From Aliikangiella sp. G2MR2-5 (lineage in GTDB: Bacteria; Pseudomonadota; Gammaproteobacteria; Enterobacterales; Kangiellaceae): a stretch of DNA of 64,000 bases. Each line of letters begins with the position of its first letter. Position 1 is the first letter of the stretch. Made by a program: the position numbers and the translations under genes. The stretch is taken from assembly GCF_015687155.1 (NCBI RefSeq), contig NZ_JADPQF010000009.1:1-64000 (forward strand). The letters are read 5' to 3'. This document shows, in pieces, positions 5,287-21,497 of this stretch. The notes below the pieces were generated by a model, which saw only the letters and a list, made by a program, of their open reading frames with translations, was not told where the DNA came from and made no database searches.

Positions 5287-6540
5287 ATGAACAAAAGCAA
5301 GCTCCACTTTAAACTACCTCAGCTGGGACCAGCGATATTGGTTACCGCTGCATTTATAGGTCCGGGTACGGTGATTACAGCAAGCCTGGCGGGGGCAAAT
5401 TTTGGTTACGCCTTACTTTGGGCCATTTTATTTTCAGTGCTGGCAACGATTATATTGCAGGAAATGACCGCAAGACTGGGAATTGTAACCGGCAAAGGTC
5501 TGGGGGAAAATATTCGAGCCAATCTGAAACACCCTTTGTTGCGAGCGCTTTCAATATTGATGGTCGTTAGTGCGCTCATTATTGGCAACGCAGCCTATCA
5601 GGGTGGCAATATCTCGGGAGCAAGTCTCGGGCTGTCAGCTCTTGCGGGAGATTTAGCCATCTCAAGTCAATCTATTAATAATCAATCGATTAATTTCTGG
5701 CCACTAATTATCGGTAGCATTGCCTTTTTCCTGCTTTGGCGTGGCAGTTTTAAACTGGTTGAAAAGTCATTGATGGTTCTGGTTGGCTTAATGAGTGTTG
5801 CTTTTTTAGTGACCTTTCTGCTAACCCGTCCTGATATTGGTGCGCTATTTTCGGGATTATTGCTTCCGGTTTTTCCAGAGGGAGCAACATTAACCATTAT
5901 CGCGTTAATTGGAACGACGGTAGTTCCCTATAATCTTTTTCTGCATGCTGCCAGTGTCAGTCAAGAATGGAAGCATCCGGAAGATCTGGGCAAAGCAAGA
6001 AAAGATCTGTTTATTGCCATTCCTGTTGGCGGTCTGATTTCTATCGCCATTGTGTCAACCGCTGCCGCTGCGTTTTTCGGAAAACAGATTCAACTCTCTT
6101 CGGCGGCAGATCTCGCACCAGCCCTTGAGCCGCTTTTTGGCGAGTGGGCAAAAGTGTTTATGGCATTGGGTCTTTTTGCTGCCGGGATCTCTTCGGCGAT
6201 TACTGCACCACTTGCTTCGGCCTATGCGCTAAGCGGTATTCTCAATTTGAATAACCAGCTGAACTCTCTGCCATTCCGAATAGTATGGATCGTCATTCTA
6301 TTGGTCGGAGTAACTATTGCTAGCGCCGGATATCGACCAGTAACCGTGATCTGGTTTGCACAGGTTGCCAACGGCATTTTATTGCCCATCGTCTGCATTT
6401 TCTTGCTGTGGCTGATGAATCAGCCGATACTTAAAGAGCATAGAAATGGAACCATCCAGAACATTCTGGGATTTATTGTTTTGGCAGTTACCCTGGTTCT
6501 GAGTGCGCGAAGCTTAATGTCAGCTTTTGGATTGTTGTAA
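5287..6540 (+). CDS. Nramp-superfamily transporter (YcsG-like), lacking the usual metal ligands
   Basis: 417 residues with ~11 predicted membrane helices and the LeuT-type Nramp layout. Helix 1 contains IGPGTV where metal-transporting Nramps have DPGN, so the conserved Asp and Asn ligands are replaced by Gly and Thr. Helix 6 reads VPYN instead of MPHN, losing the Met ligand. It therefore is unlikely to be an ordinary Mn/Fe transporter. It is 52 bp upstream of pxpABC, the same partnership as ycsG beside ycsF-kipI-kipA in Bacillus subtilis. A role in uptake of 5-oxoproline or a related compound is an inference from neighbours. Family assignment is firm; substrate is open. Confidence 0.85.
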   Translation: MNKSKLHFKLPQLGPAILVTAAFIGPGTVITASLAGANFGYALLWAILFSVLATIILQEMTARLGIVTGKGLGENIRANLKHPLLRALSILMVVSALIIGNAAYQGGNISGASLGLSALAGDLAISSQSINNQSINFWPLIIGSIAFFLLWRGSFKLVEKSLMVLVGLMSVAFLVTFLLTRPDIGALFSGLLLPVFPEGATLTIIALIGTTVVPYNLFLHAASVSQEWKHPEDLGKARKDLFIAIPVGGLISIAIVSTAAAAFFGKQIQLSSAADLAPALEPLFGEWAKVFMALGLFAAGISSAITAPLASAYALSGILNLNNQLNSLPFRIVWIVILLVGVTIASAGYRPVTVIWFAQVANGILLPIVCIFLLWLMNQPILKEHRNGTIQNILGFIVLAVTLVLSARSLMSAFGLL

Positions 6541-6592
6541 CTTTGAGCGGGATTCTTTTTTTGAGAAATAATTTTTATCAGGTATAGCTTTT

Positions 6593-7339
6593 GTGGATAT
6601 TAACTGCGATATGGGAGAAGGAATAAGTCTCGCTGACTGTCTGAGCGACAATCAGTTAATGCCTTATATCACCCGTTGTAATATTGCCTGCGGTGGACAT
6701 GCCGGTAGTGAAGCGATTATCAGAGAAACCATTCTTAATGCCAAAAGACACAAGTTGTCTATTGGCGCTCACCCCGGATATGAAGACAAAGCTAACTTTG
6801 GTCGCAAGTCTCTTGATCAATCAGTAGAAAGAACCGTTGAATCAGTGCAAAAACAGCTTGAATGCTTTTTTGAGATCGCAAGGCAGTGCGAAGTTAAAGT
6901 CGACCATATTAAACTGCATGGTGCGCTCTACAATGATATAGAAAACAGTGAAAACTCAAGGTCAGAGAATGAACTGGGCAGAAGACTGGTGAAACTTTTT
7001 CAGAGTGATTACGATCAAGTTCTGATTCTGGGCCTTGCACAGGGACAACTTGCTCATCTTTGTAAAAACAGTGGGTTGATATTTTTTGGAGAAGCCTTTA
7101 TCGACAGACGATATTTGGCGAATGGAAAACTGAGTCCGAGAAATATTTCCGGCGCAGTCATTCAAGATGCAGAACAGGCATCCGCTCAAGCACTCAACCT
7201 TATAGAAAAGAAACCAATTGAAACGCTGGATGGGCACTCTATCTTGATAGAAGCCCAAACTCTGTGCATTCATGGGGACAATCCGGCAGCACTCGGAATA
7301 TTGCAGGCAATTCAATCACGATCTAAGATTAATCATTGA
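6593..7339 (+). CDS. pxpA: 5-oxoprolinase subunit A (LamB/YcsF family)
   Basis: 248 residues, normal length. With PxpB and PxpC it forms the ATP-dependent 5-oxoprolinase that opens 5-oxo-L-proline, a damage product of glutamine and glutamate, to glutamate. The family signatures are clear: DINCDMGEG at the N-terminus, CNIACGGHAG, IGAHPGYEDKANFGR, HIKLHGALYN, and the FIDRRY and CIHGDN segments towards the C-terminus. The start is GTG at 6593; no ATG lies upstream in frame and the following residues match the family N-terminus. It is the second gene of a transporter-pxpABC operon. Confidence 0.94.
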   Translation: MDINCDMGEGISLADCLSDNQLMPYITRCNIACGGHAGSEAIIRETILNAKRHKLSIGAHPGYEDKANFGRKSLDQSVERTVESVQKQLECFFEIARQCEVKVDHIKLHGALYNDIENSENSRSENELGRRLVKLFQSDYDQVLILGLAQGQLAHLCKNSGLIFFGEAFIDRRYLANGKLSPRNISGAVIQDAEQASAQALNLIEKKPIETLDGHSILIEAQTLCIHGDNPAALGILQAIQSRSKINH

Positions 7340-7382
7340 CTCGGTATTTCACACTTAAAATTCATTAAGCCAAGGATCAACC

Positions 7383-8123
7383 ATTAATCCGCCAGACTAT
7401 AAAATTATTGCCAATGGCGACAGTGCGCTGACAGTTGAATTCATGGCGCGCGTAAGTCCCCTTTTATCCCAATATATTCATCAGTTAAGTGAGAATTTAA
7501 AAAACCATAAGCCTCAGTGTGTGAATGAAATAATACCGGCGTATCGAAGTTTGACTGTTTGTTTTGATCCTCTGATTTTTGAGCACAAAATAGTTGAGGA
7601 ACAACTGGAAAAAGTAATCGCTCAATCGTATTTTAATGACCTGCTGGAAGCCAATGAAACGCTCATTAAAATTCCAGTTTGTTATCAGGGAGATTTCGCG
7701 TCGGACCTAGCCTTTGTCGCAGAAACAAATAATCTGACCTGCGAACAGGTTATTGAGCGTCATACAAAGCCAACCTACCTGGTCAATATGCTTGGCTTTC
7801 TTCCCGGCTTTTTATATCTCAGCGGTTTGGATGAAAGTTTACATACAGCCCGTAAAGCGATCCCTGCGCTTCAAGTGGAAGCGGGAGCCATTGGTATCGG
7901 CGGAGGACAAACCGGAATTTATCCTTTTGCCAGCCCCGGAGGGTGGCATATCATAGGTCAAACACCAGTCAAAATATTTAAGCCTGAATCAGACACACCT
8001 TTTATCGCCAAACCTATGGATCATATTCAATTTGTTCCAATTGACGAAGCTGAATTCCAAAGAATCGCCCGGTCAGAAAACGAGTTTTCAGGTGTCGATA
8101 TTAGTGAGAAAAACCGGCTATGA
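7383..8123 (+). CDS. pxpB: 5-oxoprolinase subunit B (KipI family), apparent AUU start
   Basis: 246 residues if read from the ATT codon at 7383. The first ATG in frame (7443) would delete the conserved KipI N-terminus, because codons 7395-7442 encode DYKIIANGDSALTVEF, the family's first strand and GD-AL motif. No ATG, GTG or TTG occurs between the upstream stop (7356-7358) and 7395, whereas ATT at 7383 has an AAGGA ribosome-binding site (7372-7376) at ideal spacing. AUU initiation is known for infC. Downstream motifs include GFLPGFLYLSGL, AGAIGIGGGQTGIYP and SPGGWHIIG. A sequencing error could mimic this. Confidence 0.88.
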   Translation: MNPPDYKIIANGDSALTVEFMARVSPLLSQYIHQLSENLKNHKPQCVNEIIPAYRSLTVCFDPLIFEHKIVEEQLEKVIAQSYFNDLLEANETLIKIPVCYQGDFASDLAFVAETNNLTCEQVIERHTKPTYLVNMLGFLPGFLYLSGLDESLHTARKAIPALQVEAGAIGIGGGQTGIYPFASPGGWHIIGQTPVKIFKPESDTPFIAKPMDHIQFVPIDEAEFQRIARSENEFSGVDISEKNRL

Positions 8124-9064
8124 GTTTACGATTTATTAAACCAGGGTTACAAACCAGCCTGCAGGATTCTGGTCGTTCAGGCTTTATGCATCATGGAATA
8201 GGCGCCGGTGGTGTAATGGATAGTGATTCAGCTAGTCTGGCAAACTGGCTGGTTGGCAACCCTGCTAACGCCGCGGTACTGGAGATCACCTTAATAGGCC
8301 CGGTAATTGAGTTTTTGTCACCGATGACGATTGCCGTATGTGGCGCAGAGTTTGTTCTGTCCCTGAATGAATTCCCAATTGAAAATGGCGAGAGCATTGA
8401 AGTTGAAAAAGGAGATATTTTGACTTTCGGTCACAGAGAAAGCGGTTCACGTGCTTATCTGGCTTTTTCCGCCGAGCCCGATGTTGAAAAATGTTTCGAC
8501 AGTTTTTCAACCCAGCTCTCAGCCGGTTTCGGTGGTTTTAAGGGCAGAGCATTTCAAGCCAATGAAGAACTTGCACTGAAGAAGATTCGTCAGACGAAAA
8601 CTCGTCGCCTACCGCGTAGTCTGGTTGCAAACTATCTGGGAAAATACCTGTTTCGCTGCTGCCCTGCGGTGGAAACCGAAAAATTTGAAACATCTGTACT
8701 GCAAAAGTTTCAACAATCGGCCTATCAGGTTTCAGCGGATTCAAATCGAATGGGAGTCAGGCTAATTGGCGAGCCTATCGACTACCAGGCAATTGGCGAA
8801 ATAATATCCGGCGGCCTTACTCAGGGCTCCATTCAGTTACCCTCGTCAGGCTTGCCTATTATTTCGTCAGTGGATGGACAAACTATCGGCGGTTATCCCA
8901 GAATAGCCAATATTATTAGTGCCGACCTTCCGCTGCTGGGTCAATTAAGAGCAAATGACAGAGTAAGATTTCAAATAGTTACTCTTGAAAAAGCAGTCAA
9001 TTTTCTACGACAGAAACAGGCTTATTATAATCGGCTTTTAGCAGGCAAACTCACAGCACATTAA
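8120..9064 (+). CDS. pxpC: 5-oxoprolinase subunit C (KipA family)
   Basis: 314 residues. The ATG overlaps the pxpB stop (ATGA), which indicates translational coupling. Family signatures include PGLQTSLQDSGRSGFMHHGI near the N-terminus, GVMDSDSASLANWLVGN, and the C-terminal core SNRMGVRLIGEP, GSIQLPSSGLPIIS and DGQTIGGYPRIA. It forms the carboxyltransferase-like half of the PxpBC part of 5-oxoprolinase. Last gene of the operon; a hairpin lies 60 bp downstream. Confidence 0.95.
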   Translation: MSLRFIKPGLQTSLQDSGRSGFMHHGIGAGGVMDSDSASLANWLVGNPANAAVLEITLIGPVIEFLSPMTIAVCGAEFVLSLNEFPIENGESIEVEKGDILTFGHRESGSRAYLAFSAEPDVEKCFDSFSTQLSAGFGGFKGRAFQANEELALKKIRQTKTRRLPRSLVANYLGKYLFRCCPAVETEKFETSVLQKFQQSAYQVSADSNRMGVRLIGEPIDYQAIGEIISGGLTQGSIQLPSSGLPIISSVDGQTIGGYPRIANIISADLPLLGQLRANDRVRFQIVTLEKAVNFLRQKQAYYNRLLAGKLTAH

Positions 9065-9186: not shown

Positions 9187-9852
9187 CTAGTAGCTAATCA
9201 GCCTGTCCAGACGCTCCAGGTCATTAAGCACTCGCCATATTCCTCCCCCTTTTTCGACTCGCTGCTGCCAGGCCAGTAATCGATGTTTATAGTCTCGAGG
9301 GTCAACATTATCACTACGCAATTTGGTAACGTTTAAAGCAACAACATTGATCCCGTGGACATCAATTGGAAAATTTCGAATATGCCCTTTGGGTAGATCC
9401 TCTTCCAGATCGGAAAAGATAAATACATATTTCTCTCCGGCCTGAGTCTCATTAACAAAGTCTGATGCTTGAACAACCCCGCCAGTAATATCTGTATTGC
9501 GGCTACCGAATTTTACCTGCGCAACAAAGTTATCAATTTGTTGCTTAAACAGTCGCTTTTGATCATTAGCGGTACTAGGCCTTAGATCGAAGGTAGCTTT
9601 GGCAATAATATCTTTTTCGCTAAAACTTCCACTATCAATTCGAGCAACCGCTATCGAATCACCACTATCGAGAGTCGCCAGTAAATAATTGATTATTACC
9701 TGTGCTTTTTGCAGCTCTTCTGTGTAAGTTCCGGATGTATCGAGCAACAAGTAAACAGCCCTGTTTTCTCGCTTGCCTTCACCGCAAGCAGAGAGTAGCA
9801 GTACTCCAAGCACAAAGCTGATAGCTATCACACATTTTATCAGTTGTTTCAT
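9187..9852 (-). CDS. Lipoprotein with a von Willebrand factor A-like domain
   Basis: 221 residues from the ATG at 9852, which has a strong GGAGG ribosome-binding site 7 bases upstream. An ATG 15 bases earlier (9867) abuts the stop of the preceding gene and lacks such a site. A lipoprotein signal ends in LLSAC (Cys23). The mature part carries a VWA-like fold: the metal-site motif reads DTSGT (Asp38, Ser40, Thr42) where DxSxS is usual, followed by an ITGG segment and the IFSDLEED strand. It should be a membrane-anchored extracytoplasmic protein. It is encoded directly downstream of the coiled-coil membrane protein gene and opposite a two-component pair, so a shared signalling role is likely. 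Exact function unknown. Confidence 0.8.
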   Translation of the reverse strand: MKQLIKCVIAISFVLGVLLLSACGEGKRENRAVYLLLDTSGTYTEELQKAQVIINYLLATLDSGDSIAVARIDSGSFSEKDIIAKATFDLRPSTANDQKRLFKQQIDNFVAQVKFGSRNTDITGGVVQASDFVNETQAGEKYVFIFSDLEEDLPKGHIRNFPIDVHGINVVALNVTKLRSDNVDPRDYKHRLLAWQQRVEKGGGIWRVLNDLERLDRLISY

Positions 9853-9867
9853 TTTACGCTCCTCCAT

Positions 9868-11322
9868 CTAGCCCAACTTCTGCACCGATACATTTTCTTT
9901 CTGTTGTTCGGATTTGCTTTTATCGCTTTGCCTGGACTTTACCAGCTGTTCGATACTCAAAGGCAACATAATAAAAATATCAAAAAGATAAATCATCATC
10001 TTGCTGAGGTGTTTAAAAAAGCCTCCGACCATTCTCAAGACTAATCGTAGAGTTCTTAACAATCCGATGGCAACTAACCCTAAAACAACCCTGAGAGAAT
10101 GAATAAAACTCTCCAGAGGAATTGCAATAAACGCGAGTGCAAAAGGCAAAATAAATCCCATAATCATCTGTCCTATTGAAGGTATCCAGCGGAACTGTGC
10201 TTCGACAATCCCTCCCGCTGCACCGACGTTAACAAGAGATTGTTGCAGCGCTTCCCGATCAAGCGCTAACAGATCACGCATATAAGCCAGGGATGCTTCA
10301 ATCGTTGCCAGGATTGTCAAAAGAATAAAGGTCACAACCATCATCCGACGGCGCATTCGATCTTCCATTGTTCCGATGATGGGAAATAAACCAGTAATTC
10401 TGAGCGACTCGAATAAAAACAGTCCCATGGCGATTTCAATCAGAATAATCACCAAAGCAGCAATGTCTGAAGTTTTCATGCTACCAATATAGCTTGAGCC
10501 ACCAACCATTTCAGACATAGGCATAGCGATTAATTGAAAATTGATTAAGCCGCCCAGCACGGCAATAATCAACACCAGCCCGGAAATAAAAAACTGGGTC
10601 AAAGCTGATGAACCTAGAGCACTTAATGCAGAGTCTTTTTTATGCAGTATTTCAGCATAGTCGGCGATCTGCTGATCGATGTTTTTCGAACACTGATCGA
10701 GACCATTGATCTTTTCATCAACCTGGTTCAACTTGCTGTCAATATTTCGCCAATGGGGCTGCATTGCGGAGAGCAAGCGGTGGCTTTCTGCTGCCGATTT
10801 TTTAAAAGCTTTCAGAGTTTGCGCATGGGATTCATCCACTGCTTTCTTGATATTAGTTAGTATTTTAACGACTGTTGGATCGCCACTACTTGGCAAACTG
10901 GCAATCGTTTCCACAACATTACCCCATGCCGGTGGAAGTGGGGCCACCTGGGTCGACTTCTGATAGTCCGATTCAATATTTTCTATCGACTCTGAAATTT
11001 GCCGGTGAAGCGACGGATACCCGGACAGATCTCGCTTTACGATATTATTGATGCGGGTAAACTCTCTCTCTATGGCTTTTTCCGCCGCTTTTTCGCCATT
11101 AGCTAGCAGGACCTCATGATTTCTTTGAGTTAAACGTTTCTCCAGTTTGGACACACCAAATGCCCAAACTCTCAGCGTAGAATAAATGGAGTATCCACTT
11201 GTCCAGAAAAGCTGATGAGCCTGTTTACGACCCAGATACAAAATAATAATCGCGATAACAGCCCAGATAACCAGCGAAGTCGCCGGGCTATCGGACCAAA
11301 CCTGTAGTAATTCATTAGCCAT
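9868..11322 (-). CDS. Polytopic membrane protein with a large cytoplasmic coiled-coil region
   Basis: 484 residues from the ATG at 11322, which has an AGGAG site; the frame is open further upstream but with no better start. One membrane helix lies at ~17-35, followed by ~200 residues rich in charged heptads (about 60-265, two coiled-coil segments split by a Pro-rich PLPPAWG turn). Then come four to five further helices (~268-295, 320-345, 365-390, 415-445) and a charged C-terminal tail. I recognise no family. Its stop abuts the downstream VWA-lipoprotein gene, so they are one operon. The topology suggests a sensor, scaffold or channel-like partner for the VWA lipoprotein; that is inference. 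Confidence 0.75.
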   Translation of the reverse strand: MANELLQVWSDSPATSLVIWAVIAIIILYLGRKQAHQLFWTSGYSIYSTLRVWAFGVSKLEKRLTQRNHEVLLANGEKAAEKAIEREFTRINNIVKRDLSGYPSLHRQISESIENIESDYQKSTQVAPLPPAWGNVVETIASLPSSGDPTVVKILTNIKKAVDESHAQTLKAFKKSAAESHRLLSAMQPHWRNIDSKLNQVDEKINGLDQCSKNIDQQIADYAEILHKKDSALSALGSSALTQFFISGLVLIIAVLGGLINFQLIAMPMSEMVGGSSYIGSMKTSDIAALVIILIEIAMGLFLFESLRITGLFPIIGTMEDRMRRRMMVVTFILLTILATIEASLAYMRDLLALDREALQQSLVNVGAAGGIVEAQFRWIPSIGQMIMGFILPFALAFIAIPLESFIHSLRVVLGLVAIGLLRTLRLVLRMVGGFFKHLSKMMIYLFDIFIMLPLSIEQLVKSRQSDKSKSEQQKENVSVQKLG

Positions 11323-11510
11323 TGCTACTCTCCTAATTTGAATGCTGGTTGAATGAACCTGCAATTTGATTGAGCCTGGATTATCCCCCCCTCCAGTGAA
11401 AAATCTGTGAGAAAAATACGGCCTTCTGTGCGATAAAATATTTGAACTAAGTCGATGCATCCGACCCAAGCTATTGATAAGATAAAATTAACTAATATGA
11501 GGAGCGAGTT

Positions 11511-12308
11511 TTGGCGAGAATTTTCTGGGTTGAAGATCAATTTCACTGGATTGACAAGTTCAAGCCAATACTGGAGTCATCTGACTTTGGAGATTCTTCA
11601 CTGACACCTATAAACAAGGTTGAGATTCATAAATTTCAGGAATCAGCCTGTCGCGCGATAAACCACGCGACAGACGAACCGGATATTGCCATTCTCGATG
11701 CGAATTTAAACGGAAATGATGATGCAGGGCTTACCATATCAAAGTTGATCACTCAAAAATGGCCCTCAGTACCTATCATCTATCTGTCTGAGCATAGCGG
11801 TACCGGAATCGAGCAAAAGGCCTTTGAAGAATCCAGTGCGCAAGACTTTATCGCCAAACATCAAAGGAATGTTGAGCAAGTCCTTACCTGGCGAATAAAG
11901 GCCTTACTACGTCATAAACAGATGCAGTCAACCAGTTTATCTTCTACCTGCGACAGAATAGTGAGCGGTCAACTAACTATCGACCTGACCACCTGGAACG
12001 TCTACTGGCATGGTGAACGGCTGATGAATCCCAGCAATGCTCAAAGACCACTTGCGCCGATGCCGCGAAAAATACTTAAATTGCTGGTTGAAGCATCTCC
12101 CAGTCCATTAACAACAGACCAAATAGCCGATAAGCTCGGTGTAGAAAGTTTCAGTTACGCCAACTATCGACAACACATAAAAACGCTACGTCACTCGTTT
12201 GAACAAGCCTGTCAGCGAAAACAGATAGACAGCTTTATTGACCAGGCTAAAAAAGGAAAGGGAATAGTCACTTTTGGTGACGAAGGAGCTTATCAATGGA
12301 TGAAATAA
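11511..12308 (+). CDS. Response regulator, receiver plus winged-helix output
   Basis: 265 residues starting at TTG 11511. A GAGGAG site lies at perfect spacing and the nearby ATG (11497) is out of frame. The N-terminal receiver keeps the acidic pair (VEDQ), phosphoacceptor Asp (AILDANL), the switch Ser (YLSEH) and Lys (FIAKH). It has a longer-than-usual loop before the second strand. The C-terminal half (~155-265) looks like an OmpR/PhoB-type winged helix (PRKILKLL... LTTDQIADKL), followed by an unusual Lys/Gly-rich end. It overlaps the downstream kinase gene by 13 bp and is divergent from the VWA/membrane pair. Confidence 0.85.
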   Translation: MARIFWVEDQFHWIDKFKPILESSDFGDSSLTPINKVEIHKFQESACRAINHATDEPDIAILDANLNGNDDAGLTISKLITQKWPSVPIIYLSEHSGTGIEQKAFEESSAQDFIAKHQRNVEQVLTWRIKALLRHKQMQSTSLSSTCDRIVSGQLTIDLTTWNVYWHGERLMNPSNAQRPLAPMPRKILKLLVEASPSPLTTDQIADKLGVESFSYANYRQHIKTLRHSFEQACQRKQIDSFIDQAKKGKGIVTFGDEGAYQWMK

Positions 12309-13984
12309 TCGAGCCTGAGAAGGTAAAAGCATCAATGGCATCTTCAAGTTTTCAACCGTTAAAGACTGTCAAAAGGCCTTTCTTTCATACGCCCTGGCTA
12401 AGTTTAATCACAAGCGTCATTTTAATCTTATACCTTTTCGCTACCAGTACGCCCCAGGTTTTGCAGAATTACGAATTTGTTAAAACTTTTCTTTCGCCAC
12501 AGATTAGAACGCCGCTCCTGGTTGTTTTTTTTACCATCTATTTATTTGATTTTTATCTTTTGAAAAAAAGTCAAAAAAAAATAAAAGCACGACTTATCAG
12601 TCTTGACGAACAACTGGAACTTGCCTGGAAACAAAAAGCGAAACAACAGGCAAGAGCGAATACCTACTCTGGTCAGACCGATAAGCTGAAAGGCTTTATC
12701 AGTGACAAACTTCTGGAGTTTATGGAGTTTGATGAAAAATTTGTTCATTTTAAAGGGATCGCGAGCGAGGTCAGGCACAATGGCGTTATCAGCTTTGATA
12801 AAGTTATGAGTGCCTTGAAAAAAGCGATAGAACAACAAGGTTTCCTTTCGATCTATGAACAGAACAAGCAAGAGAATGACGACAATGAGCAATTATCCAG
12901 TCAAACTTTAAATGCAATGGCGCAATACCAGGACGCGCAGGACGCGATGGAATATCTATGGGCACTACTTGATCTATCTACGGCAGATAATATGGCAATT
13001 CATATTGGCAACCAGTTAATAGAGTGCGAAGAACATTATTTTCAACTTCAGCTGGATGCTGAAAAAAGTATGGACATAACACAAAGCATTCCGGTTTCGC
13101 CAACATTCTACCCACAACTCTCTCTTCTATTGACTTTATCATTATTGTCAAATGAACAAGAAATTAGGAATATGATTGCCTTATCAAGAATCAATCACAG
13201 GGTATTTGAGGAGCCGATCGAATTTTGCAATGAACAATTCTCTGTTTACGCAGAAGCTACTGACGAACTCCTTGGCAATTATAACCATATTATTCTGTTA
13301 TTGGAGAATCTTATTAAAAATGCGCTTTTTTTTAGTAGAAAAACACCTTACAAACAGTCTGCTGATAAAGTTGTAATAAGACTATTCAATGAGACATCAA
13401 AAAACATTACTTTCTCTGTTTACAACAGAGGACCACATATCGGCATTAACGAAATGGAGAATATTTTTACTCTGGGTTACTCAACCCGTCGTAATCATAA
13501 ACACAATGGAAAAGGCCTCGGACTTTTTTTTGGCAGACAAATCATTGACGGTTATCAGGGAGAAATTAAGGTTGAGAATATAGCGACGAACGCTTCGAAG
13601 CTTATAGTAAAATTAGTATTAACTAATGGAGAAGAGCTTTGTCACGAAATAGAATCCATTGCAGATAATGGGCGTCCGCAATGTCGTCTGGCTGAAGAAA
13701 AATTTACTGATAAAGTCCAGCTCAACTCTGTTATTCCTGTAAAAACACTCATATTTTGTCTTGCAGATACTTCATCAGAGCAATTCGACTTAGCTACGGA
13801 AGACCTGACAATGGAAAACCTGGCAATGGAAGACTATATCTACAATGAAGAAAAACTGCCTGTCTGGCAATTCAATTTCAGATCCTCAAAAAAGTCCAGC
13901 TCGCTTATATTAAAGGCGTTAGATACCACAGGGGTTCAGTTTAAATTTAGCCTGCCTTCGGCAAGCTCATTGTTGGAGGAATAA
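12296..13984 (+). CDS. Atypical membrane histidine kinase, partner of the response regulator
   Basis: 562 residues. Two membrane helices (~35-52 and 72-90) enclose only ~20 periplasmic residues, so there is no large external sensor. A coiled-coil/linker follows. The ATP-binding domain (~330-445) shows an N-box (LLENLIKNAL), a G1 box VYNRGPHI in which the usual Asp is Asn, an F-box (IFTLGYSTR) and a G2 box (GKGLGLFFG). I cannot find a standard H-box such as SHELRTP; His161 in the EVRHNG segment is one possible phosphosite. A C-terminal extension of ~115 residues is unassigned. An AAGGAG site precedes the ATG inside the regulator gene, so the pair is translationally coupled. Confidence 0.82.
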   Translation: MDEIIEPEKVKASMASSSFQPLKTVKRPFFHTPWLSLITSVILILYLFATSTPQVLQNYEFVKTFLSPQIRTPLLVVFFTIYLFDFYLLKKSQKKIKARLISLDEQLELAWKQKAKQQARANTYSGQTDKLKGFISDKLLEFMEFDEKFVHFKGIASEVRHNGVISFDKVMSALKKAIEQQGFLSIYEQNKQENDDNEQLSSQTLNAMAQYQDAQDAMEYLWALLDLSTADNMAIHIGNQLIECEEHYFQLQLDAEKSMDITQSIPVSPTFYPQLSLLLTLSLLSNEQEIRNMIALSRINHRVFEEPIEFCNEQFSVYAEATDELLGNYNHIILLLENLIKNALFFSRKTPYKQSADKVVIRLFNETSKNITFSVYNRGPHIGINEMENIFTLGYSTRRNHKHNGKGLGLFFGRQIIDGYQGEIKVENIATNASKLIVKLVLTNGEELCHEIESIADNGRPQCRLAEEKFTDKVQLNSVIPVKTLIFCLADTSSEQFDLATEDLTMENLAMEDYIYNEEKLPVWQFNFRSSKKSSSLILKALDTTGVQFKFSLPSASSLLEE

Positions 13985-14051: not shown

Positions 14052-17000
14052 TTAGCTGGATAACTGGATCCAGAAGGTACTTCCTTCCCCCTCCTGACTG
14101 TCAACGCCTATTACACCGTTCATTGCTTCGATAAGCTTTTTGGATATGGCGAGCCCCACGCCGGTTCCTTCTATTCCTGAGTCAAGGTTAACCAGACGCT
14201 CGAAGGGTTTAAATATTGCTTCATGATACTCGGATGGGATTCCGCCGCCTTCATCTTGAATAGAAAGTTTCACCAGGCTCTCCGGTTGCTTTTCAAAAAA
14301 GATATTAACTGTTCCTTGTTGACGGTTATACTTGATAGCGTTACTGAGTATATTCATTACCACTTGTCTTAAACGGAAAGGATCGCCCATTACCATGTAG
14401 TGATGTTCGTCTCTTTCATAAACTATTATATTCTCTCTTTCCTTTGCCATTGGCTCACATTGTTTAATACAATCTTCCACTATGTCTCTCAAAGAAACTT
14501 CGTCTAATCGAATATCGAGCCTTCCACTCTCTATCCTGCTAAGATCAAGTACTTCATTGACCAACCCTAATAGATGACGTCCCGCCCGCATTATTTCTTC
14601 TAAACTATCTAGCTGATCACCATCTAGCGGCGAGGCCTCGCTTTGTTGTAGTAACTGTCCAAAACCTAAAATAGCATTTAATGGCGTGCGTAACTCATGA
14701 CTCATTCTGGATAGAAATTCTGTTTTTGCTGCGCTCGCCTTCTCCGCATTCTCCTGAGCGTTTTTCAACTCGGCCGTTCGCTGCTCCACCAACTCTTCCA
14801 AATGATCTCGGTAGTTTTCCAGCTCCAGTTGTGACGCCTTTCTCTGTGTGAGCTCCTGTGAAACGGTTGCCATGGCGATAGGCCTTCCTTTATCATCATC
14901 GACTCGAAATATGTCGAACCACATCAAGATTCTGTTTTTGTTCTTAAAGTGCTGAAAATAGAACTCACCAGACCATCGCCCCTGACTTAACACCGTGGGA
15001 ATAATCTCATTGTTAACCTGCGGCTTATCTTCATCTGCAAAAAAATCAATAACCGTTTTACTATTAAACTCCTGATCACTTTCAATTCCAACCAGCTGCC
15101 TTCCCGAACTATTCAGGAAAAGTGCATTTCCCTGAATATCAGCGATACCGATAAAGTCGGAGGAATTATGAACAATAGATGCCAGCCTGGTCACTCCCTC
15201 CTCAGCTTTTTTTCTACGTTCAATATCGGTAATAAAACCAGTCATGATTTCTGGTTTACCTTCACTATCAAACTGAACCTGCCCCCTGGACTGTATCCAG
15301 CGATACTCACCATTTTTTTGTTTCAAACGCATCTCTACATCATAGGGAATATCTTCACTAAAGTGCATTTCCAGTGCTGACTTTACTCGTTCCATGTCCG
15401 CGGGATGAACAAGGGATGAGAAAGTATCGACATGATAGGGAAGTTCTTGTGGTTTGTATCCTAAAATCTCAAACCAGCGAGGCGAAAAATAGTCATGACC
15501 GGTTTTTATATTCCACTCCCAAAGGCCATCATTGGTTCCTTTTTCAGCTCTTCTATAGCGAGCTTCGCTATTCTTAACAGCTTTTTGAGCCAGGTATAAA
15601 TCTGTAACATCCTGTACAGTTCCTCTTGATACGAGCGGTTCGTCATTTTCGTCAAATTCGGTATTACATCTTTCTTCCACCCATTTAACTCTTCCGTCCT
15701 TCATTAATAGTCGATGAGTAATTCGATAGGGCTCCTTTGTTTCAAGCGATATAGAATAAGCCTCGTTAACCCTATCCCGATCTTCTTGATGAATAGCCTC
15801 AATAAACGCTTCATAAGTTGCAGGAAACTTACTTTGATCAATTTCAAATAGTTTAAATATCTGGTCTGTCCAAAACAATTGGTTAGTTTTTAGGTCTAAC
15901 TCCCAGCTACCGATCCTGGCGATATCCTGAGCACGATTTAATCTTTCTTTGCTCGCCTGCAATGTCTCATCTTTTTGCTTGCGCTCAGAAATATCCCTGA
16001 CCACACCGGTAAAAAACGAACGGGAATCTCGCCTGGTTTCACTAACAGTTAACTCTATTGGAAAAACGGTTTGATCTTTTTTTATGGCATTAACTTCTCT
16101 TCCCAAACCTATCATCTTCTTTTTTCCGGTGTTTAGATAGTCTTTAATATATTGAGCATGGTCACTGTGGTATGGTTCAGGCATTAAAATTGAAATTTTT
16201 TTTCCTAACAGTTCATCTTTTGTATATTGAAAAAGTTCTAAAGTTGCGGGATTGACGTCCTGAATGATTCCACTGTCATCGATCAAAATAATACTGTCTA
16301 CCGCAGCCTCAAGAATGTTGCGAATATTTTTTTCGCTTTCACGTAATGCTGTCCATGCTTTTGTTTGCTCAGAAATATTCTGACCAATACATATCAGAGA
16401 GGTATGTCCAGCTCCCGTATCTTCGAGCATTTCGGAATACCAGGCTATCGGAACCAGGTGCTTCTCTTTATTAACCACTGGAATTACCAAAGAGTTCATA
16501 TGCTGTTGAGAGCAAGCCTTTTCAAAAGCCTCTCGAGCCTTGCTTTTGGTTTCAAGTGAAGCAAATAAAAAGCCCCACTCCTGCCCAATAGCGTCTTCCT
16601 CAGTAAATCCTAATAACTGAGTAAACCATGAATTAGTTTTTTGAATAACGCCCTTCTCATCCAGTTCAATAATAATCATCGGAGCGGTTTCAACAATACT
16701 TTTGGCAAAGTCTCTTTCTTCAGTAAGTTGAGTAGTTAACTCGTCAAATTTCTTTGCCAAAACCCCAAACTCATCTAATGTACGAGGTTTTATCCTCACT
16801 GGGGGAGAACCAATTTGACTGTTTACTTGGGTAAGATTTTTTAATGGAATAATACCTTGCTGAAAACTATTCCAGGCCAGTCCGGTACCTCCGACGGCTA
16901 ACAATAGTAAAGTTAACCAGATAATCACGGTTTCTATGCCGAAGTAACCTGTTTTATTATAAAAATATCCAAGGAGAAAGCAGTCAACCAATAAAGGAGT

Positions 17001-17549
17001 AACTATCCCCAACATCATCACCTTATTTTTTATGGGCACAGCGTTGACACACACGTCATGAGGGATAACATATTTTCCCAATCGATCAACAAAATAAAAA
17101 AACAATGGAAATGACGAAATAAGTACGACAGGAACGATACCCAGCTGATGAACCAGCTTGTCATCTAGAGAGTATTCTGCGTAGCCTAGTCTTTGAAGAG
17201 TAATGTCTGCAAGATAAATCCCTCCCATAGAATACAGCGCAATTGCTGAAAAGGTAAACCAGGGCAAATGAGCTAAAACTGTTTGAACTTTTTGTTCAGC
17301 CTGGAATCTATCCGCACCGAGAATGCTTTCAAACCATCTCGCAAACTTCTTGGCCATTAACAATCCAGAAAACAGCAATACCAATACATATATTCCGCCA
17401 ATATCGATAAAAATCAGATAAAACTCTGGCATTGGATAAAAGCCAGCTAATGCCATAAGCGAACCACCGACAAAAGGCGGTAAAAAACATGCTAAGATGA
17501 TAAAACGGTAAGCCAAGCCAGTAATCGAATCTCCCTTATTTTTAGTCAT
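14052..17549 (-). CDS. Multi-PAS membrane sensor histidine kinase
   Basis: 1165 residues. The N-terminal ~235 residues contain six or seven hydrophobic helices, followed by a HAMP-like linker (~235-275). About five PAS domains follow (~275-395, 400-520, 535-655, 660-785, 790-905). The second resembles oxygen-sensor FixL-type PAS domains in its LMPEPYHSDHAQYI segment; whether it binds heme cannot be judged. The kinase core has an H-box (MSHELRTPLNAILGF) and a complete ATPase domain with GTGVGLAIS, and there is no receiver. It starts 6 bp after the upstream hybrid kinase gene, so the two are cotranscribed. It may pass phosphate to a receiver of that neighbour; inference only. Confidence 0.93.
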   Translation of the reverse strand: MTKNKGDSITGLAYRFIILACFLPPFVGGSLMALAGFYPMPEFYLIFIDIGGIYVLVLLFSGLLMAKKFARWFESILGADRFQAEQKVQTVLAHLPWFTFSAIALYSMGGIYLADITLQRLGYAEYSLDDKLVHQLGIVPVVLISSFPLFFYFVDRLGKYVIPHDVCVNAVPIKNKVMMLGIVTPLLVDCFLLGYFYNKTGYFGIETVIIWLTLLLLAVGGTGLAWNSFQQGIIPLKNLTQVNSQIGSPPVRIKPRTLDEFGVLAKKFDELTTQLTEERDFAKSIVETAPMIIIELDEKGVIQKTNSWFTQLLGFTEEDAIGQEWGFLFASLETKSKAREAFEKACSQQHMNSLVIPVVNKEKHLVPIAWYSEMLEDTGAGHTSLICIGQNISEQTKAWTALRESEKNIRNILEAAVDSIILIDDSGIIQDVNPATLELFQYTKDELLGKKISILMPEPYHSDHAQYIKDYLNTGKKKMIGLGREVNAIKKDQTVFPIELTVSETRRDSRSFFTGVVRDISERKQKDETLQASKERLNRAQDIARIGSWELDLKTNQLFWTDQIFKLFEIDQSKFPATYEAFIEAIHQEDRDRVNEAYSISLETKEPYRITHRLLMKDGRVKWVEERCNTEFDENDEPLVSRGTVQDVTDLYLAQKAVKNSEARYRRAEKGTNDGLWEWNIKTGHDYFSPRWFEILGYKPQELPYHVDTFSSLVHPADMERVKSALEMHFSEDIPYDVEMRLKQKNGEYRWIQSRGQVQFDSEGKPEIMTGFITDIERRKKAEEGVTRLASIVHNSSDFIGIADIQGNALFLNSSGRQLVGIESDQEFNSKTVIDFFADEDKPQVNNEIIPTVLSQGRWSGEFYFQHFKNKNRILMWFDIFRVDDDKGRPIAMATVSQELTQRKASQLELENYRDHLEELVEQRTAELKNAQENAEKASAAKTEFLSRMSHELRTPLNAILGFGQLLQQSEASPLDGDQLDSLEEIMRAGRHLLGLVNEVLDLSRIESGRLDIRLDEVSLRDIVEDCIKQCEPMAKERENIIVYERDEHHYMVMGDPFRLRQVVMNILSNAIKYNRQQGTVNIFFEKQPESLVKLSIQDEGGGIPSEYHEAIFKPFERLVNLDSGIEGTGVGLAISKKLIEAMNGVIGVDSQEGEGSTFWIQLSS

Positions 17550-17555
17550 TCTTCT

Positions 17556-20500
17556 CTATCCAAAAAACTGACTTAATTTTTGTTTAAATTGCTTTACATC
17601 AATTGGTTTTATTAGATAATCAACAAATCCAGCTTTTTTTCCTCGCTCAATATCGTGTTGCATTGCATTAGCAGTGATGGCAATTACAGGAATATTGCTA
17701 GTTAACTCATTATTCTTTAGTTCATCTAGTACCTGATATCCGTCCATTCCAGGTAAATTAATATCCAGTAAAATAAGATCTGGATGATAAGAAATGGCGA
17801 TTTCTATGCCTAGCTCCGGGGAAGGGGAAGAAAGTAAGTTAATATCATTATTTGCTTGAATTATTTTTTCAACCAATTTTAAGTTAGCAGGGTTATCTTC
17901 GATATACAGAACCTTGTGTTGTTTATGACCATGTGACATGGAAGAAGTAGCAGTAGTTTTTTCTCTAATATTCTGGTAGCTTAAATTCGAGCGGCGGCTA
18001 GCATTTCTGGACAAACTCCCTTCGGGCAAAGTAATCCAGAATGTGCTTCCTACACCAGCTTCCGACTCAACGCCTACTGACCCTCCCATTTGCTCAACAA
18101 TACTCCTGACAAGGGCAAGTCCAATGCCTGTACCTTCAATACTGCTATTTTCGGCTTCTAATCGATTAAATGGCTGAAAAAGTTCTCCGATTCTATTTTT
18201 TGCAATCCCTAGTCCTGTATCGATAATCAATATTTTTGTTTCTCCATTTTCTTTCTTATCAAGTTTTAGTTCGACCGAACCATTTTTCTTGTTGTATTTA
18301 ATCGCGTTGGACAACAAGTTGAGTAAAACCTGACGTAGCCTTACTCTATCAGACCAGACTGTTCCTGAGCCAATAGAGTCATACCGGATTTCTATATTTT
18401 TACCTTGAGCAAGAGGTGATACCAGTTTCATACAATCTTCAACCGTTTTCCGCACACTCACAGGCTCCAAAGTCAGGTCAATTTTTCCCGATTCAACTTT
18501 TGCCAGGTCTAACACATCGTTAATCAGCGATAGTAAATGCTTTCCAGCTTTTTCTACTTCTTGTGCGCACTCTTTTTCGTCTGCATTAATTGATTTACTA
18601 TTAAGAATTAGCTGATTAAACCCAATAATCGCATTCATGGGTGTCCTCAGCTCATGACTCATATTGGATAGAAAATCCGACTTGGCCTGATTCGCTTTTC
18701 TCGCTTCTTCCAAAGAAATCAGCATTTCCTCTTCAGCTCTTTTACGCTCATCAATATTTATTGAATAGCCTAATATTTCCTGAGGTTCGCCTAATTCATT
18801 CTTTATCAGTACCAGCTTATCCATAACCCAGCTATATTGTCCTGAAGCATCTAATATGCGGTACTCTCGCTGATAGGTCCCTGCTTGCATCAACTTTGAG
18901 TAATCATCCTCCAATTTTTTTCGATCGTCTGGATGAATTCTATCTAACCAGAAATCCTGACTTTCGATAAATATTTTTGGTGAGTATCCTAACTGTTTCT
19001 TAATGTTTGAACTAATCCAGGTCATTTTTAAGGGAGGATTCTTATCGCAGGTAAACAGTGTCACCGGAGTTTCGGAAATTAAAAAGTCCAACCTCGACTC
19101 ACTTTCTTTGAGGATTTCCTCAGCATTTTTTCTTTCACTAATATCCCGCACTATTGCAACGAGGTTCGACTCAGCTCCATGTGAACCGATATACTGCAGA
19201 AAGATCTCTACCGGTGTTTTTCGACCATCTTTGGCTTTTACTATAGCTTCCTTCCTGAATGTGGACAGCTCGCCAAGTCTCATCGAGTTGGCCAGGTTAA
19301 CCATTTGCTCTTTGCTGACATTTACCAGAATTTCATCCGGAAGGATCGAAAATATCTCTTCGCGAGTATAGCCGAGAAGTTTTAATGCGCCTTGATTAAC
19401 ATAGGTAAAGCTGAGATTTTTGGCGTCAGCAATAAATACGGCATCGAGAGTTTGATCAAGCGTTTCTCTAAATCTTTGAAGTACCTGTTCAGAACTACGT
19501 CTTTCAATTTCATTTTCGATGCGAGAAGCAAATATTTTCAGAATTGCGAGTTTGTTGCGGGGATCATGAATGACCTTCTTATCCATAATTCCTATCACAC
19601 CAATACTTTCACCTTTTCGGTTTATCAACCTAACGCCGATAAAACTTTCAATATCATTCGTGTTGGCCCACTGTATATCGGAAAAACTTTCACTCATACC
19701 ACTCGAACAAAGATAAGTCTTTTGTTCAAGCAAGTACTCTATGGGAGTTCCTTTTGCGTCAAATTTATAACTTTTAACAAGGTTGCTATTATCCCAATAG
19801 GCGAGCATTTTGAAATGTGTTTTCTCGGTTGGAATGGCGAAGAAACAGGAGTCAACTTGACAGGTTTTCGCCAGTCCTTCCATCATTCGTTGAAAGAAGT
19901 TTTTGTCGGTAACGGCGACCATATTTTCTACGAGCGCCTGTAGTGCGAATTGATGTTGCTTAGTCTCAGTAATGTTCGTTCGAATTGAGGTATATCGGTA
20001 CGGTTTTCCTTCATTATCAAGAAACGGTGTAATCGTTGAGCTAACCCAGTAGAGACTGCCATCCTTACGACGATTACAAATTTCACCATGCCAGGTTTTA
20101 CCAGATGATATACAACTCCACAAACTTTGATAAAAGTCTGACGAATGAACTCCGGACTTGAGAATTCGATGATTTTGTCCAATTAACTCTTCTTTTGAAT
20201 AACCGCTAATATTACAGAATCTTTCATTAACGGCAATGATGTTTCCTCGTCTATCAGTCGTACTGACTATGGCGTGTTCGTCCAGTGAATATTGAATTCT
20301 TTCCAATTCGTAGAGATTCTTTTCAAGCCGTTGTTTGGTCGCTTTTATTTCTCTGTACCTGAAGGCTCTAACCGTAACCATCGAAACAAGATGCTTGCCA
20401 TCAACCGGTTTCACCAGAAAATCATCACCTCCTAATCTCAAAGCATTAATCTGTTGTATCGGATCTTCCTCGGAGGAGAGAAAAATGATCGGAATATCCA

Positions 20501-21497
20501 GATATTCAGACTTAAGCCGTATCATCGATGCAAGTTCAGGTCCCATTATTTTTGGCATATAGACATCAAGCACAATAACATCCGGCCGAAAAGATTCGAG
20601 CAAATCCAATGCTTTTGTTGGGTCAGAAAGTTCTTCTACTTCTATCCCCACCTGGGCGAGATTAAGACTCTGTATCTCTAATACAAACTTGTCGTCATCA
20701 ACCATCAATACTTTTATTGGTTTTTGCGGCCTTTTCTGTGCAAGCATTGAGATCCCTTCTATCAAGGTATCGGGGTCAAATGGCTTACAAATATATCGAC
20801 TCGCGCCAGCTTTAAATGCCGCTAAACGTGCTTCTTGTGATTGTTCTACGGAAACAACAATTATGGGAATTGTATGCCTTTGCTGATCGGTAAGATTCTG
20901 AATTGCCTCTATACCGGCATAGTGATTTCCTTCCAGATTTAAATCCATTAGTACGACATTGGGTAACTCAGAATTTTCTTTAAGTAACCCTTTTTTGAAC
21001 TGTTCTGTCGAAAAAAAACACTTGGCTCGAAAACCTGATTGAACAACCAGATTTTCTAGCACTCTGGATTGCTCTTCATCATCTTCGACAATAAAGACCA
21101 AAGGACTGTCTTTTAGAACATTGCTCCCAGCGGTTTGAAATGAGCCGAACGGACGGATTTTAGGTGGTGAAGTTAGCTGGTTTTGAATAGTACTAAGTAA
21201 TGAATCAATGGTCTGCCATTCTGTTTCGTTGGCAGACAGTTCATGCAACTTTTCATTGAGTAGCAGTAGTTCTAGCTGTCCCGCACTATTATAAACGGAT
21301 GAATGCTCATACACCCCGGCTAAACCTTTCAGGTTGTGCACCAGCAGCCGCAAATCAATTTGTAGCTCGGGCGAATTGGTTTCTTTCTTGAGCTTTTGAC
21401 AAAGACCATAAATTTCGACAAACCTGGCTTGAAGCTTACTAACGTAAGCTTTGTCAATTTTGCTAAGGCTGACAGCTGGTGATTTATCGCTTTTCAC
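17556..21497 (-). CDS. Giant hybrid histidine kinase: Hpt-REC-REC-PAS-GAF-PAS-PAS-HK-REC
   Basis: 1313 residues, GTG start at 21497 with a weak ribosome-binding site. Domains in order: Hpt with HNLKG (His54); receiver 1 (~133-250, Asp185, Lys238); receiver 2 (~261-378, Asp311, Lys363); PAS (~400-515); GAF-like (~520-680); two PAS domains (~685-925); HisKA with SHELRTPMNAIIGF; ATPase with GTGIGLALV; and a C-terminal receiver (LLDINLPGMDG). It is cytoplasmic, with no membrane helix seen. Having the Hpt and two receivers at the N-terminus is the reverse of the common order and would allow an internal multistep relay. It precedes the multi-PAS kinase in one operon. Confidence 0.93.
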   Translation of the reverse strand: MKSDKSPAVSLSKIDKAYVSKLQARFVEIYGLCQKLKKETNSPELQIDLRLLVHNLKGLAGVYEHSSVYNSAGQLELLLLNEKLHELSANETEWQTIDSLLSTIQNQLTSPPKIRPFGSFQTAGSNVLKDSPLVFIVEDDEEQSRVLENLVVQSGFRAKCFFSTEQFKKGLLKENSELPNVVLMDLNLEGNHYAGIEAIQNLTDQQRHTIPIIVVSVEQSQEARLAAFKAGASRYICKPFDPDTLIEGISMLAQKRPQKPIKVLMVDDDKFVLEIQSLNLAQVGIEVEELSDPTKALDLLESFRPDVIVLDVYMPKIMGPELASMIRLKSEYLDIPIIFLSSEEDPIQQINALRLGGDDFLVKPVDGKHLVSMVTVRAFRYREIKATKQRLEKNLYELERIQYSLDEHAIVSTTDRRGNIIAVNERFCNISGYSKEELIGQNHRILKSGVHSSDFYQSLWSCISSGKTWHGEICNRRKDGSLYWVSSTITPFLDNEGKPYRYTSIRTNITETKQHQFALQALVENMVAVTDKNFFQRMMEGLAKTCQVDSCFFAIPTEKTHFKMLAYWDNSNLVKSYKFDAKGTPIEYLLEQKTYLCSSGMSESFSDIQWANTNDIESFIGVRLINRKGESIGVIGIMDKKVIHDPRNKLAILKIFASRIENEIERRSSEQVLQRFRETLDQTLDAVFIADAKNLSFTYVNQGALKLLGYTREEIFSILPDEILVNVSKEQMVNLANSMRLGELSTFRKEAIVKAKDGRKTPVEIFLQYIGSHGAESNLVAIVRDISERKNAEEILKESESRLDFLISETPVTLFTCDKNPPLKMTWISSNIKKQLGYSPKIFIESQDFWLDRIHPDDRKKLEDDYSKLMQAGTYQREYRILDASGQYSWVMDKLVLIKNELGEPQEILGYSINIDERKRAEEEMLISLEEARKANQAKSDFLSNMSHELRTPMNAIIGFNQLILNSKSINADEKECAQEVEKAGKHLLSLINDVLDLAKVESGKIDLTLEPVSVRKTVEDCMKLVSPLAQGKNIEIRYDSIGSGTVWSDRVRLRQVLLNLLSNAIKYNKKNGSVELKLDKKENGETKILIIDTGLGIAKNRIGELFQPFNRLEAENSSIEGTGIGLALVRSIVEQMGGSVGVESEAGVGSTFWITLPEGSLSRNASRRSNLSYQNIREKTTATSSMSHGHKQHKVLYIEDNPANLKLVEKIIQANNDINLLSSPSPELGIEIAISYHPDLILLDINLPGMDGYQVLDELKNNELTSNIPVIAITANAMQHDIERGKKAGFVDYLIKPIDVKQFKQKLSQFFG

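Follow-up and report, generated by a model that had tools for sequence, protein, structure and literature searches.

What does a two-component system (TCS) control, and what does it listen to, when its kinase carries no recognised sensor domain? The question is raised by four genes of Aliikangiella sp. G2MR2-5, located in the first 64,000 nucleotides of contig NZ_JADPQF010000009.1 (hereafter, the window). There, the genes for a VWA-like lipoprotein (P1) and a membrane protein (P2) stand divergently from those for a response regulator and a histidine kinase. A previous interpretation made from the letters of the DNA alone (the sequence-only reading) knew of no described system with this gene set, and none was found by us in the family libraries or the open-licence literature searched. 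Our answer to the first half of the question is that kinase and regulator probably form a dedicated, almost single-target TCS that activates the P2-lipoprotein operon. Regulation of the pair by the TCS appears well supported by comparison of related loci, as described below.

The intergenic region at 11323-11510 had been suggested as the place where the regulator might bind, and the conserved promoter box that we detect there strongly backs a predicted action of the regulator in that region. The box, CTCACAGATTTTTCAC, is common to the divergent intergenic regions and is found exactly in the window at 11396-11411, on the minus strand. Nothing else in the 64 kb matches with up to two mismatches; at that laxity, 35 of 100 shuffled sequences also match, so the weight of the window box comes from its conservation. 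Within 200 nt before P2, the strict box was present in 28 of 39 loci with the TCS genes (TCS-positive) versus none of 49 without them (TCS-negative), and a relaxed form, TCAC-N7-TYAC, in 38/39 versus 1/49 (Fisher p 1.3e-22, a lineage-dependent value). The only TCS-positive locus missed, L016, has its box 334 nt upstream, parted from P2 by an insertion. If that distant box is counted, the direct repeat precedes P2 in all 39 TCS-positive loci and is always in phase with a -10-like hexamer; the lone TCS-negative box (L106) is out of phase and lacks the phased A residues. When the 39 TCS-positive promoters were aligned without gaps, A was found at +26 from the box start in 39/39, A at +28 in 90% and T at +30 in 72%. 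The box is also kept before P2 in five TCS-positive loci that are not divergent (L031, L065, L067, L085 and L101); in the three of them tested (L067, L085 and L101), the 400 nt ahead of the regulator gave no box. In the TCS-negative set, 36 loci belong to genomes whose entire sequence was searched for the TCS, and for 13 the search covered contig flanks only. One of the 36, L100, is an additional copy of P2 in G288, a TCS-positive genome. Duplicates (L073, L096) and loci cut upstream (L015, where the box is present, L047 and L089) were left out of the counts.

The insertion in L016, a locus of Thalassolituus alkanivorans, is a segment of about 266 bp (L016:6571-6836) with 27-nt terminal inverted repeats that are 89% complementary. 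Lying between operator and P2, it looks like a small non-coding transposable element.

The architecture of the promoter bears on the sign of the regulation. In the window, the six bases found 17 nt before the -10 hexamer are ACAGAT, which is not sigma-70-like, and the box overlaps the -35 region. A box in place of the -35 is the look of PhoB-type activated promoters, and a -35 unlike that of sigma-70, overlapped by a box phased with the -10, is the arrangement of a promoter that needs an activator. The -35 region under the box would also be a possible seat for a repressor, and the regulator might then repress the P2 operon; however, the overlapped -35 does not resemble a sigma-70 element and the phase with the -10 is kept in 39/39 loci, which makes repression improbable.

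The number of targets was also examined. The 5.0-Mb genome of the window contains one exact site, the one at P2, and at two mismatches the motif is no commoner than a reversed control (32 matches vs 38). A wider regulon in this genome was considered and rejected on the sites with one mismatch at most, as the only exact site is that of P2 and the one-mismatch site lies within a coding frame; the other 30 matches all have two mismatches. When 25 genomes (13 TCS-positive, 12 TCS-negative) were searched with one mismatch at most, seven exact sites were found, all in TCS-positive genomes and six of them at P2. A strict promoter pattern applied to 54 genomes gave 14 matches in the 13 TCS-positive genomes (12 at P2) and five in the 41 TCS-negative ones (none at P2); the P2 box of G155 is a variant missed by this pattern.

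The phylogenetic distribution of the four genes provides a further line of evidence. A pattern-based, non-exhaustive search of a collection with one genome per species yielded 43 loci with P2. The lipoprotein was detected beside P2 in 41 of them (the misses are L045 and L048), and all four genes were present in 24, including L028, whose kinase is truncated where the contig stops, and L017, whose kinase is divided between two frames. Another five gammaproteobacterial loci (L011, L013, L015, L026 and L031) lie on contigs that stop within the regulator-kinase side or short of it. The remaining 14 loci contain P2, mostly with the lipoprotein, without TCS genes: 13 are from records whose names point to groups other than the Gammaproteobacteria (Desulfobacterota-type and Nitrospira), and one, L033, belongs to a gammaproteobacterium. 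In a gene call on 93 loci, which include some near-duplicates, 75 had one P2 and one lipoprotein gene, on the same strand in 75/75 cases and with a median overlap of 4 nt; 17 loci had no lipoprotein call and one had no P2 call, the missing lipoproteins being due in part to a simple caller that keeps the longer antisense open reading frame (ORF). The genes for P2 and the lipoprotein are tightly paired in Gammaproteobacteria, Desulfobacterota and Nitrospira.

Among 321 sampled gammaproteobacterial genomes, P2 was found in 45 (E <= 1e-5) and the lipoprotein in 42 (E <= 1e-10), 41 of which also have P2; the four genomes that have P2 but no match to the lipoprotein (G072, G202, G207 and G263) all harbor long-branch P2 relatives. 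Kinase (E <= 1e-30) and regulator (E <= 1e-25) were each found in 13 genomes, and the 13 are identical, although thresholds as strict as these would miss more distant relatives. All 13 carry P2 and the lipoprotein (hypergeometric p 1.5e-12 for the overlap with P2, computed on genomes that are not independent), while 32 of the 45 P2 genomes lack the TCS. The question of whether the four families co-occur has therefore a split answer: the TCS is always found with the pair, but the pair is often found without the TCS, which indicates that the TCS depends on the pair and not the reverse. The sequence-only reading had treated the four genes as a unit, and in one lineage they are; they are not one obligate set, because lipoprotein and P2 have a much broader distribution than kinase and regulator.

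Gene order around the TCS is variable. Most TCS-positive loci are divergent; L067 has the order P2-lipoprotein-regulator-kinase and L101 the order regulator-kinase-P2-lipoprotein, while in L065, L085 and L031 the kinase is upstream on the same strand, about 5.7 kb away in L065 and 2.9 kb in L085. A linkage that outlasts rearrangement argues for function. Marine strains in which the locus is present include Aliikangiella coralliicola M105 and Thalassolituus marinus. Second, divergent P2 copies in addition to the standard one were seen in L075, L103 and L100 (genomes G101, G301 and G288, respectively); those of G101 and G301 have a lipoprotein, and none was detected with the G288 copy. Other neighbors, named by sequence reading and not by family search, were MCP-like and HAMP-type genes upstream of P2 in the Desulfobacterota-type loci L038, L039, L042, L043 and L048, with a CheW-like gene too in the first four, and a FliA-like sigma factor adjoining P2 in two gammaproteobacterial genomes (L092 and L098).

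In a maximum-likelihood tree of 81 P2 proteins, a single branch with support 100/100 separates all 35 kinase-linked rows from the other 46. One change of TCS state suffices on this tree, compared with about 26 in shuffles. Besides repeat copies, 12 duplicates, short contigs or partial genes were left out by hand, and six long-branch rows located elsewhere in the tree are of unsure placement. As the tree is unrooted, it is by inference that we place the TCS gain on that branch: kinase and regulator would have been added once, in one gammaproteobacterial lineage, to an older P2-lipoprotein pair.

A number of observations weigh against the interpretation that we favor. The box was derived from 28 divergent loci, all of which were recounted among the 39. 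Seven TCS-positive loci scored below 14 with the first matrix and were caught by the relaxed pattern, which was chosen after reading them; hence, its count is descriptive and is no blind test. As the TCS-positive loci all fall to the same side of a single branch, with near-identical pairs among them, box and TCS share ancestry. Stray sites with one mismatch are as common in TCS-negative genomes (10 in 12) as in TCS-positive ones (11 in 13, one of which, in G019, lies at P2), and are therefore mostly noise. Two extra in-phase sites (in G265 and G052) indicate that the system is not always strictly single-target. Lastly, the transmembrane (TM) helices and the loop of the kinase are poorly conserved, which does not speak for sensing via a conserved TM contact.

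As for the extra sites, the second exact box of G265 with its phased -10 (L148:1501-1516; L177) precedes a gene for a 163-residue secreted-type protein that has no Pfam match; no counterpart was found in 24 other genomes tested. No ORF was called within 200 nt of the site in G052.

Altogether, the co-occurrence of the genes, the box and its phasing to the -10, and the near-single target make activation of the P2-lipoprotein operon the most likely role of the regulator. The kinase, with two TM helices and no recognised sensor domain, would phosphorylate the adjacent OmpR/PhoB-like regulator via H161 and D63; the regulator would then bind the tandem TCAC direct repeat that overlaps the promoter's -35 region (promoter at 11380-11411), thereby activating the operon for P2 and the VWA lipoprotein, an older functional unit which kinase and regulator would have joined once. 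Operator binding, phosphorylation at H161 and D63, activation over repression and the direction of change on the tree are steps that we infer from sequence.

The proteins themselves fit the roles proposed. The kinase had been described as lacking a recognisable H-box; our alignments do not support this, as an atypical motif, E-V-R-H-N-G, is present with H161 invariant in 23/23 family members. HATPase_c was matched by 23/23 kinases, and together with the candidate phospho-acceptor H161 it identifies the protein as a predicted histidine kinase, while HisKA was not among the matches listed at E <= 1 in a Pfam scan of the window kinase. The family carries N338, N342 and GxGxG, and N377-R-G379 replaces the usual D-x-G of the G1 box in 23/23 members (with R378 in 21/23). 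A match to PADLOC PDC-M43B (E 3.9e-5) covers just part of the ATPase domain. In the regulator, residues E8, D9, D63, S93 and K116, the expected catalytic positions of a receiver, are invariant in 24/24 aligned sequences. The window regulator scores 34 bits against Response_reg (cut-off 30.2) and 18.8 bits against Trans_reg_C, below the cut-off of 26.2, and the family profile (positions 53-243 of 266) spans receiver and winged helix of BaeR with E 4.2e-7.

The absence of a large external sensor, already suspected, was borne out by family hydropathy: two TM helices are predicted, with no sizeable periplasmic domain and a loop of about 11 residues. Two explanations of what such a kinase may sense were considered. 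The first is that, as in Bce modules, P2 and the lipoprotein serve as sensor as well as output, so that the kinase would read the state of P2 through its coil or TM parts and the pair would supply the kinase signal, closing a feedback loop. The kinase topology is in favor, as is the fact that the TCS never occurs without P2 in 321 genomes. The helix ahead of the H-box is highly conserved (16/36 columns at >=90%), and the second external loop of P2 (residues 347-381) has conservation 0.80 in the TCS clade vs 0.50 outside while the coil has 0.61 vs 0.59 (eight long-branch rows left out). Yet P2 or the pair lives without this TCS in 32 of 45 P2 genomes, the kinase TM helices are variable, and the signal in loop 347-381 is weak because it is not unique: outside the coil, most parts of P2 show a somewhat higher conservation within the TCS clade. 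Clade-specific residues were also tried as a map of kinase contacts, and this was abandoned as only 11 scattered columns were found. We consider feedback of this kind possible, and put it forward tentatively.

The second explanation is that the kinase itself senses a membrane or cytoplasmic signal, for instance through its C-terminal region (441-562), and sets the dose of P2 and lipoprotein. In favor are this extra region, which has no Pfam match, and the autonomy of the pair elsewhere; conservation of the region is, however, weak (7/122 columns at >=90%). We consider self-sensing possible to a similar degree as the feedback, and likewise tentatively.

In the lipoprotein, the sequence-only reading had pointed to DTSGT as a VWA-like metal site. 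The site is better written as D43-x-S45-x-T47 with T/S125 and D153. D43, S45, D126, S152 and D153 are invariant in 29/29 aligned members; position 47 is T in 27 members and E or D in two, and position 125 is T in 27 and S in two. Window P1 falls short of the Pfam VWA_2 cut-off (23 bits vs 27), and 26/29 members match VWA_2 at E <= 0.01; with its conserved residues, which resemble a metal-ion-dependent adhesion site (MIDAS), the family belongs among VWA proteins. Cys28 of the lipobox, preceded by a hydrophobic segment, is present in 29/29, as in bacterial lipoproteins. Sorting of lipoproteins follows the +2 rule, which concerns Asp at that position; the +2 residue is Asp in just 3/29, suggesting that P1 members are mostly in the outer membrane. 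A PDB search with the P1 family profile gave no match at E <= 1.

No significant Pfam match was obtained for window P2, nor a consistent family for 39 members scanned, the commonest weak match being a coil model in 10/39. By family hydropathy, P2 has five strong TM-like peaks; further, weaker peaks near 422 and 448 are read as amphipathic. A charged, coiled-coil-type region of about 200 residues sits between the first two peaks; it is probably cytoplasmic, because its mean K+R is 30.8 compared with 0.0, 0.0 and 1.8 in the three loops read as external. The best PDB matches of the P2 profile, angiotensin receptor chains at E 0.006, were judged to be chance. Weak matches to PADLOC ZorA2 (E 0.0048) and to a MotA chain in PDB (E 0.32), and the chemotaxis-type genes near the pair in some Desulfobacterota-type loci, would accord with a MotA/ExbB/ZorA-type stator, the locus being then a motor or a defence system. 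We deem this very improbable: the ZorA match is confined to coil residues 171-235, hhalign of P2 with ten MotA/ExbB proteins encoded in the same genome gave a probability of 0.65%, MotA_ExbB is absent from the Pfam matches shown for P2, and P2 relatives were not found in plasmids, phages or viral contigs. The latter result also led us to reject a mobile-element origin.

The four ORFs of the sequence-only reading were all recovered at their positions, and their conservation in relatives indicates that they are real genes. Table 1 gives the coordinates.

Table 1. Genes and promoter elements of the P1-P2/TCS locus (window coordinates)
Feature	Position	Strand	Remarks
VWA-like lipoprotein gene (P1)	9187..9867	-	ORF; lipobox Cys28; MIDAS-like D43-x-S45-x-T47 ... 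T125 ... D153
P2 membrane protein gene, 484 aa	9868..11322	-	ORF; TM-like hydropathy peaks; no Pfam family
-10-like hexamer GATAAT of the P2-P1 promoter	11380..11385	-	10 nt past the box; A at +26 kept in 39/39
Putative regulator operator CTCACAGATTTTTCAC	11396..11411	-	TCAC/TCAC direct repeat, 11-bp period, 73 nt before P2 start
Response regulator gene	11511..12308	+	ORF, TTG start; receiver and putative OmpR/PhoB-like winged helix
Histidine kinase gene	12296..13984	+	ORF; two TM helices, short periplasmic loop, H161, N338/N342, N-R-G, GxGxG

Genes beyond the four vary among related loci, and no third conserved partner was seen there. On the P1 side, 5287-9064 contains an ordinary set, a Nramp-family transporter gene followed by LamB/YcsF and two carboxyltransferase-domain genes; we take the latter three to be the 5-oxoprolinase set PxpABC. 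On the other side (14052-21497), the histidine kinase gene adjoins a tandem pair of very large PAS-rich kinases of 1165 and 1313 residues, the second with three receiver stretches. No such pair occupies that place in the related loci drawn.

What is new here is the direct-repeat box TCAC-N7-TYAC, located before P2 and phased with the -10 in kinase-linked loci. A widespread, conserved gene pair thus acquires a predicted promoter, regulator and operator, by means of which it could be switched on or off and its signal sought. If true, the recruitment of a TCS, once, to an existing pair would be a clean case of the birth of a dedicated signalling pathway.

Comparison with known systems places the locus near several of them. 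The regulator resembles PhoB/OmpR-type proteins in having a receiver, a weakly matched winged helix and, as predicted here, a tandem direct-repeat operator; PhoB binds in tandem, head-to-tail, according to the portion of PMC4415409 consulted. Unlike those regulators, it has almost one target per genome, and it scores far below the cut-off of every NCBIfam family listed. Its best NCBIfam match, and the third of the kinase, is the proteobacterial dedicated sortase system (TIGR03785/TIGR03787), whose name also denotes a dedicated TCS; the scores, however, are 38.6 and 38.9 bits vs cut-offs of 335.7 and 612.2.

The kinase is reminiscent of the HPK10 family (AgrC/ComD), which is described in excerpts of PMC12323615 and PMC3353171 as having a FRHDY-type box with Tyr two residues after His, no H-box Pro and no D-box. 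It shares an R-H-x phospho-acceptor without the H-box Pro, the lack of the D-box Asp and a match to HATPase_c_5 (GHKL) in 16/23 members. In contrast, the residue at +2 from His is Gly163 in 23/23, not Tyr, so that the kinase is HPK10-like but not an HPK10 member; besides, its partner is OmpR-like instead of LytTR and the membrane part is different.

Closest in logic are the Bce-type modules (BceRS-BceAB, GraRS-VraFG), in which the kinase likewise has two TM helices joined by a tiny external loop, and the adjoining genes encode a membrane complex switched on by the regulator, as is predicted here; BceS relies on BceB for sensing, as stated in the section of PMC7951975 examined. The differences are that the hosts here are Gram-negative and that P2 and the VWA lipoprotein do not make a recognisable ABC transporter, no gene for which is found in the four-gene unit. 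A broader proposal, which we regard as rather unlikely, is that P2 and the lipoprotein form an undescribed envelope-spanning sensor-effector complex, which this lineage would have made self-regulating: the complex would provide the input to its own sensorless kinase and also be the principal output, as a Gram-negative equivalent of the Bce modules assembled from unrelated parts.

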